64,000 bases of DNA, from assembly GCA_021647985.1 (NCBI GenBank), contig JAKITQ010000010.1:1-64000 (forward strand), read 5' to 3'. This DNA is from Flavobacteriaceae bacterium. Its GTDB lineage: Bacteria; Bacteroidota; Bacteroidia; Flavobacteriales; Flavobacteriaceae. Position numbers and translations under genes: made by a program. Below, one piece after another: positions 53,536 to 57,934 of the stretch (position 1 is the first letter of the stretch; every line of letters begins with the position of its first letter). The notes under the pieces were generated by a model. It was given only the letters and a program-made list of their open reading frames with translations, searched no databases and was not told where the DNA came from.

Positions 53536-53543
53536 TATATTTG
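53536..53543 (+). promoter_or_regulatory. Bacteroidota -7 promoter element for the tRNA-Leu locus
   Basis: TATATTTG, a full consensus match, lies about 120 bases before a tRNA-Leu remnant and 180 bases before the intact tRNA-Leu. Confidence 0.55.
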
Positions 53544-53643
53544 CAAACCGAAATTTATCATGTGATTTATACAAAGATAAGTAAGGTAATTATTACCAAA
53601 GAGCAACTTAGAAAAATAAGAAACTCTTTAAATTAAGGTAAAG

Positions 53644-53696
53644 TGCCTGCCGGTAGGCAGGGCGAAATTGGTAGACCTGTCTGCCGACAGGCAGGT
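53644..53696. repeat. two GCCTGCC-type palindromic repeats inside a tRNA remnant
   Basis: The first (53644-53660, TGCCTGCCGGTAGGCAG) replaces the acceptor stem. The second (53677-53696, CTGTCTGCCGACAGGCAGGT) lies between the D-arm and anticodon arm of the tRNA-like sequence. Both are short imperfect palindromes with GCCTGCC/GGCAGGC cores. Confidence 0.7.
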
Positions 53697-53715
53697 GCGC
53701 AAGGATTTAAAATCC
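53661..53715 (+). pseudogene. tRNA-Leu(UAA) remnant
   Basis: Removing the 20-bp palindrome at 53677-53696 restores GGCGAAATTGGTAGAC joined to GCGCAAGGATTTAAAATCC, the D arm and anticodon arm of a tRNA-Leu with anticodon TAA (loop TTTAAAA between GGAT and ATCC). The variable, T and 3' acceptor parts are missing, and the next gene follows 8 bases later. It cannot form a working tRNA. Confidence 0.65.
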
Positions 53716-53723
53716 AAAATTAA

Positions 53724-53807
53724 GCCTTGGTGGCGGAATTGGTAGACGCGCTGGATTCAAAATCCAGTGATTGCAAAATCGTGTGGGTTCGATTCCCACC
53801 CAAGGTA
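53724..53807 (+). tRNA. tRNA-Leu (anticodon CAA)
   Basis: This is an 84-nt class II tRNA. The acceptor stem GCCTTGG pairs with CCAAGGT (first pair G-T), followed by discriminator A at 53807; CCA is not encoded. The D arm contains AATTGGTAGAC, the anticodon stem CTGGA/TCCAG encloses TTCAAAA with anticodon CAA at 53758-53760, a long variable arm follows, and the T arm is GTGGG-TTCGATT-CCCAC. It reads UUG codons. Confidence 0.96.
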
Positions 53808-53810
53808 CTT

Positions 53811-53851
53811 TAAAACCCTGTAATTATTTAAATTACAGGGTTTTATTTTTT
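53811..53851 (+). terminator. intrinsic terminator after tRNA-Leu
   Basis: Perfect 14-bp arms at 53811-53824 and 53832-53845 (TAAAACCCTGTAAT) with a 7-base loop, followed by a T-rich tail. Confidence 0.9.
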
Positions 53852-57806: not shown

Positions 57807-57934
57807 AGGTCTTAAATAATAATAGTTTGTTAAATTTTTGTATAATGTTGATTTAAAGTTAGCTATATCAAAACACTTAGATGCGATAAAGCATTGATAT
57901 TCAAAATTTCAATTTATAATCTGCCTGCCGGAGA

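Follow-up and report, generated by a model that had tools for sequence, protein, structure and literature searches.

A palindrome-bearing partial tRNA-Leu copy in a Flavobacteriaceae genome, probable relic of a small GIY-YIG nuclease element of tRNA genes

Upstream of an intact tRNA-Leu(CAA) gene in a Flavobacteriaceae bacterium, a stretch of tRNA-like sequence is interrupted by palindromes, which raises the question of whether a second tRNA gene has decayed here or another kind of sequence has left its trace. Here, we describe this locus in a window of 64,000 nucleotides (the whole stretch of DNA analysed; contig JAKITQ010000010.1, positions 1 to 64,000, assembly GCA_021647985.1), which comes from a draft assembly of 3.0 Mb in 80 contigs, and compare it with related loci in other genomes (coordinates in Table 1). 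The tRNA-Leu(CAA) gene is the single tRNA of the whole window (ARAGORN, Rfam), and the partial copy ends 7 nt 5' of it. Further upstream, TATATTTG is called promoter-like by comparison with the Bacteroidota -7 consensus.

Table 1. Features of the tRNA-Leu(CAA) locus (positions of the window)
Feature	Position	Strand	Basis
Promoter-like TATATTTG of the tRNA-Leu locus	53536..53543	+	Sequence; many same-genus loci have a similar motif directly 5' of tRNA-Leu(CAA) (by eye)
GIY-YIG ORF remnant, 13 codons plus stop (TKEQLRKIRNSLN, stop)	53595..53636	+	Likeness to the C-terminal ends of GIY-YIG proteins encoded at tRNA-Leu(CAA)
Palindrome 1, TGCCTGCCGGTAGGCA, one G-T pair	53644..53659	.	Junction of missing acceptor strand and D arm; reading of sequence
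Partial (5') tRNA-Leu copy, positions 9-43, insert 2 included	53661..53716	+	Alignment, shuffle test
Insert 2, 20 nt, palindromic, CCTGTCTGCCGACAGGCAGG, between GGTAGAC and GCGC	53677..53696	.	Alignment to intact tRNA
Intact tRNA-Leu(CAA)	53724..53808	+	ARAGORN; Rfam tRNA, 60.4 bits
15-bp inverted repeat, probable tRNA terminator	53811..53845	+	Repeat from sequence; terminator role inferred

The partial copy aligns with the adjacent tRNA-Leu(CAA) across its 20-nt insert, with a score that 2000 shuffles never reached. This upholds the proposal of the first-pass annotation that a tRNA-Leu remnant is broken here by palindromes; as had also been stated, the copy lacks its 3' part. Insert 2, described there as exact, is an imperfect palindrome: it contains a T-G pair, and its centre is mispaired. 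Palindrome 1 does lie where the acceptor strand and the D arm would meet, the place that a hairpin occupies in a related locus (L213, below), but its supposed replacement of the acceptor stem is not demonstrated, since the 7 nt before it (GGTAAAG) are unlike GCCTTGG and the acceptor strand is therefore mutated or absent. Identification of the remnant as tRNA-Leu(UAA) finds no support. With the insert spliced out, the 35-nt copy has a score of 26 to the genome's own Leu(CAA) and of 22 to its own Leu(UAA), and appears slightly better explained as a copy of the former, a difference that rests on few positions. The anticodon triplet of the copy is TAA, but the same CAA-to-TAA change occurs in the copy at another locus (L215), itself before a tRNA-Leu(CAA). 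A further tRNA-Leu(UAA) gene was correctly anticipated, and lies intact elsewhere in the genome (C1:32290), beside a tRNA-Gly(GCC).

The likeness of the 13-codon remnant to the C-terminus of GIY-YIG proteins was spotted by eye and shuffle-tested afterwards. With a Leu-type C-terminus as query across 149 genomes of the family, five ORFs (L212-L216) were found to end 0-29 nt before a tRNA-Leu(CAA), with a sixth (L217) in mirror order; among 30 further GIY-YIG ORFs of the family, 19 have a tRNA nearby by script and 11 do not, L217 being one of the latter until the locus is read, which brings the count to 20. Compared with the C-termini of L212 (which ends in GKEQLRKLRSAKI and a stop), L213, L119 and L217, the remnant TKEQLRKIRNSLN was matched as well by none of 2000 shuffles for each, and the two queries tiled along the whole window, L212 and L119, both scored best at its position; the remnant was not matched to L215 (591/2000 shuffles) or L216 (347/2000). 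L212 and L216 carry the same CCTGTCTGCCGACAGGCAGG at the same position of a tRNA-Leu copy, followed by a whole GIY-YIG ORF and then the intact tRNA-Leu(CAA). A different hairpin occupies the insert 2 position in L215, and the mirror form L217 has a 3' copy with a T-arm hairpin. A broken ORF precedes tRNA-Leu(CAA) in L214, with no copy by eye, and L119 retains an ORF piece, with no tRNA copy found. Given this order of copy, hairpin, ORF and tRNA in L212 and L216, and the remnant 5' of the fragment, the window probably contains the decayed remains, without an ORF, of one of a family of small elements that sit in tRNA (and tmRNA) genes and whose spread would involve cutting and copying by repair. 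Read as a unit, the locus is best taken as one ORF that would have lost all but its last codons, then the displaced half, then the restored tRNA.

Relatives in the genus and beyond show what a complete member looks like. Two other genomes hold a palindrome-bearing tRNA-Arg(TCG) copy followed by an 80-88-codon ORF and then the intact tRNA, and this ORF is a GIY-YIG nuclease by Pfam (PF01541, 1.5e-15). A genus search with it yielded 21 matches. The ten strongest of them (down to 1.9e-7) each sit right at a tRNA gene or a copy of one, nine by ARAGORN, at isotypes Arg(TCG), Ala(GGC), Asp(GTC), Pro(TGG) and Leu(CAA). One of these loci (L114) runs off its contig between two tRNA copies, and repeated copies or tandem units are found in L113, L114, L116 and L118 (L113, L114, L112 and L111 also bear the labels L132, L133, L135 and L136, respectively). 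One of the eleven weaker matches (L127) is a further piece of ORF in the L113 locus, and the other ten are in loci without a tRNA.

A protein-only scan of one genome per species (84,980 species) gave 235 relatives, from which the best 80 were kept. An intact same-strand tRNA adjoins the ORF in 63 of these 80 loci, which span several phyla (ARAGORN): in 35 the ORF precedes a tRNA within 60 nt, and in 28 the tRNA precedes the ORF within 160 nt. The tRNA start called by ARAGORN lies at or before the end of the ORF stop codon in 22 of the 35, by 3 nt or more in 20. A partial tRNA copy stands on the far side of the ORF in 53 of the 63 tRNA-adjacent loci (54 by test, L175 being spurious because its match falls within a neighbouring intact tRNA; the copies of L198 and L160 are weak), and none in 9 (10 with L175 so counted); in L164 a copy of the tRNA 3' part lies on the 5' side. 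Direct repeats surround the ORF in 67 of the 80 loci, among which the two tRNAs of L175 may count, versus 3 of 138 control windows; among these three, at least those of L171 and L177 come from loci with repeated copies. Of the 17 loci with no adjacent ARAGORN tRNA, about 12 have tRNA-like copies, a tRNA or a tmRNA (Rfam, partly by eye), including L202 at a tmRNA and L149 beside a group I intron, and five (L163, L182, L200, L205, L206) have no tRNA, tmRNA or tRNA-like copy by eye and Rfam. The best explanation of these loci is a full unit of about 300 bp, in which a displaced partial tRNA copy with one or more hairpins is followed by a 75-100-codon GIY-YIG ORF and the intact tRNA, or the same parts in mirror order. 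In the loci read, the space between partial copy and intact tRNA has room for the GIY-YIG ORF only, and no integrase.

In Neomarinimicrobiota (L202, 790-1145 and about 1731), the family GIY-YIG ORF lies 3' of a tmRNA (Rfam) with repeats resembling the tmRNA 3' end on both sides (by eye), and the family thus seems to reach beyond tRNA genes. In Nomurabacteria (L149, 1501-1997), the GIY-YIG ORF runs directly into a group I intron match (Rfam, 57.6 bits) and has hairpin-like sequence 5' of it, a possible link between GIY-YIG elements and tRNA introns. In L171 and L190 (L177 is similar), GIY-YIG ORFs alternate with 3' copies like the tRNA-Met copy of L187, and GGGCGTACGCC replaces the anticodon arm (by eye).

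The proteins match Pfam PF01541 for four of five queries (E 4.8e-15 to 4.9e-18), the 43-aa piece of L119 having no match, and Y5, G18, R26, H30, A58 and E62 are invariant in an alignment of 46 of the best 80. The predicted GIY-YIG fold is confident (pLDDT 96.4). The nearest solved relatives are UPF0213 and Slx1 GIY-YIG nucleases, by profile (1ywl, 1.3e-9; 1zg2, 6e-9; Slx1 4xlg, 6.4e-5) and by fold (1zg2, 7.9e-5; Slx1, 2.9e-3). Slx1 works with Slx4 on branched DNA, and we know of no tie of UPF0213 or Slx1 nucleases to tRNA genes. Phage records gave no match at 1e-5 and viral contigs none, and three proteins searched against PHROGs gave one weak match (3.4e-4). The proteins cluster by anticodon, with 38 changes on the tree versus a shuffled mean of 51.4 (minimum 47 in 200 shuffles), on a tree of 63 of the 80 proteins built from few columns, with 35 of 60 inner branches drawn open; this clustering could come from target specificity or from common descent.

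How the palindromes came to sit in the copies is a separate matter. They may be passengers, that is, REP-like repeats that settle in neutral DNA and are frequent in displaced tRNA copies only because these tolerate them; this view concerns the hairpins only, is compatible with the element reading, and has in our judgement slightly less than an even chance of being right. In its favour, the 20-mer of insert 2 is found at ≤2 mismatches in 36, 29, 8 and 6 copies in four other genomes, a range (6 to 36) in keeping with the many genomic copies of REP-like palindromes; the window's own 3.0-Mb genome has 3 to 4 (3 places at ≤3 mismatches; 4 by a degenerate pattern at ≤2). Likewise, of 77 sites examined in 56 loci of the genus, a count from which the sites of G007, G010 and G014 were mostly left out, 63 have no ARAGORN tRNA within 500 nt or none in their locus at all, 14 are within 500 nt and 9 within 100 nt, so that most genus palindrome sites lie elsewhere than at tRNAs and GCCTGCC palindromes may be ordinary repeats. 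A dense cluster of CCTGCCTGCCGGCAGGCAGG-like palindromes was also seen in G004 (C16:798300-852000, L065-L068), and ARAGORN placed no tRNA in the parts of this region that were retrieved. Inserts of at least 8 nt occur in 36 of 54 partial copies, and 24 of the 40 inserts outdo 95% of their own shuffles in folding (L175 included in both counts), with no clear preference for loops: a restriction of hairpins to tRNA loops, suspected by eye, was dropped with 12 of 40 in stems where 17 were expected (12 of 30 after merging, 12.9 expected), as was, on reading the alignments, the idea that hairpins always disrupt the T-loop.

Against mere passage stand the 9 of 77 genus sites within 100 nt of a tRNA, and the window's own genome, where all 3 places at ≤3 mismatches (3 of 4 by the degenerate pattern, the fourth not at a tRNA) are partial tRNA copies adjoining the matching intact tRNA, namely Leu(CAA), Asn(GTT) and Thr(GGT); the Leu and Thr copies pass the shuffle test, and the Asn copy, of 15 nt, was judged by eye only. 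Moreover, hairpins of different sequence recur in tRNA copies of several phyla. The first-pass annotation had concluded that GCCTGCC repeats can enter structured RNA genes; their recurrence in tRNA copies bears this out in part, but what the loci show is hairpins in displaced copies belonging to the GIY-YIG element, not the invasion of a working RNA gene. Short hairpin inserts in structured RNA genes are familiar from Rickettsia palindromic elements and mitochondrial double-hairpin elements; unlike those, the present hairpins lie in displaced tRNA copies joined to a nuclease gene. A tally of the GCCTGCC heptamer alone gave no enrichment in the window (2 found versus 1.68 expected). A lone TGCCTGCCGGA half-palindrome at 57922-57932 of the window is apparently a chance occurrence or a decayed copy.

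The original proposal, in which a complete further tRNA-Leu gene was once present and fell into decay when palindromic repeats had entered it, would account for a tRNA-like copy with palindromes at 53644-53716 and for a palindrome that is a dispersed repeat in several genomes. It is nevertheless very unlikely in the light of the genus: the Leu(CAA) loci fetched from 16 of its 22 genomes (the six outside this coverage include the window's own genome) each contain exactly one tRNA (ARAGORN), and a search of the 300 nt 5' of tRNA-Leu(CAA) found no partial copy in any of the 16 (lowest p 0.04). GIY-YIG-like C-terminal codons directly 5' of the fragment, and the same copy and hairpin ahead of a whole GIY-YIG ORF in L212 and L216, also speak against it, and a second tRNA-Leu(UAA) gene is improbable as the identity of the fragment. 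That the copy and hairpin form a retained regulatory RNA leader of the tRNA operon, as their position between promoter-like site and tRNA and a tRNA-Asn hairpin copy shared by three same-genus genomes (L073, L088, L093) might suggest, is about as improbable, given a copy in 0 of the 16 other same-genus Leu(CAA) loci, hairpins whose sequence and position vary widely, and ORF-bearing forms that account for both copy and hairpin.

The window is thus best regarded as an old relic of a GIY-YIG element, and the layout of its relatives suggests how such an element might move. The predicted nuclease would cut a tRNA gene, and repair would copy the whole unit into the cut; the tRNA part carried by the element would restore the split gene, and the original half would stay behind. 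Later the ORF could decay to a few codons, as in the window. The hairpins in the displaced half may be passengers or may act as a bar to recombination or misfolding with the intact tRNA; our guess is that they most likely break up this half and so block its recombination or folding with the intact gene. We also entertain, with rather more doubt than belief, the broader idea that all these loci form one mobile-element-like class, in which an Slx1/UPF0213-like GIY-YIG nuclease and half a tRNA make up a minimal split-and-restore homing system across several phyla, many isotypes and tmRNA, the hairpins being a working part that would mark the half as occupied or block its folding or recombination with the restored tRNA.

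Parts of this scheme have counterparts in known systems. Free-standing homing endonucleases act by cutting a gene into which repair then copies the unit (PMC2988022). SegB, a phage enzyme, makes its cuts inside tRNA genes and can drive tandem amplification (PMC13096335). The present elements resemble the SegB-type GIY-YIG endonucleases of T4-like phages in having an intron-free nuclease gene beside many tRNA isotypes, and their tandem units recall SegB-driven amplification (PMC2988022, PMC13096335). They differ from SegB in residing in bacterial chromosomes, in a protein of about 80 aa with no phage-record match at 1e-5, in the hairpin-bearing partial tRNA copy on the other side of the ORF, and in the frequent overlap of ORF and tRNA. 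In tRNA/tmRNA genomic islands (Islander, PMC4383910), the target is split and restored by element sequence, with the displaced fragment at the far end, and both the restored target and the displaced fragment have their likeness here. Unlike those islands, the units read have no integrase, measure about 300 bp and hold one GIY-YIG ORF, and their displaced fragment is a 5' or 3' part, often with hairpins. The literature matches listed, judged by title and the start of the abstract and with coverage short of subscription journals and preprints, include no description of a bacterial-chromosome element of this type, and a tRNA-splitting GIY-YIG element is apparently so far undescribed. An odd pseudogene thereby becomes the trace of an apparent mobile element housed in essential RNA genes without disabling them, which may account for stray tRNA halves, for hairpins near tRNA genes and for small GIY-YIG ORFs beside tRNAs. 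The natural series of intact, ORF-less, remnant and empty loci offers material for the study of homing, tRNA repair and the role of the hairpins.

Anatomy, tRNA adjacency, partial copies, hairpins and tandem units can be read directly from these loci, as can decay stages and presence or absence at one orthologous tRNA. At tRNA-Arg(TCG), 18 loci of the genus (excluding L273, with only 24 nt upstream, and L114 of G007, whose contig ends before the intact tRNA) comprise 3 with ORF and copy, 3 with a hairpin copy only, 2 with a C-terminal ORF remnant only and 10 with neither. The D-stem of the intact tRNA is altered in 6 of the 8 loci with element traces and in 4 of the 10 without, a weak coupling; immunity through an altered D-stem was considered and rejected as unproven, because some empty loci share that stem. 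At one of the three loci with a hairpin copy only, in G019, three tandem ORF-less partial tRNA-Arg copies spaced 80 nt apart, with the hairpin TCCCGATAGTTATCGGGA, lie 240 nt 5' of tRNA-Arg(TCG) (L274), and this triple copy looks like a non-autonomous derivative. Among 28 tRNA genes examined in the window's genome, a clear partial copy is found at Leu(CAA), Ala(GGC), Thr(GGT) and Arg(TCT); candidates at Arg(ACG) and Tyr were weak distant matches and were not counted. The same genome (G000, contig C43) has a fragment of the tRNA-Arg(TCT) 3' end about 150 nt 3' of the intact gene (L248, 1227-1243).
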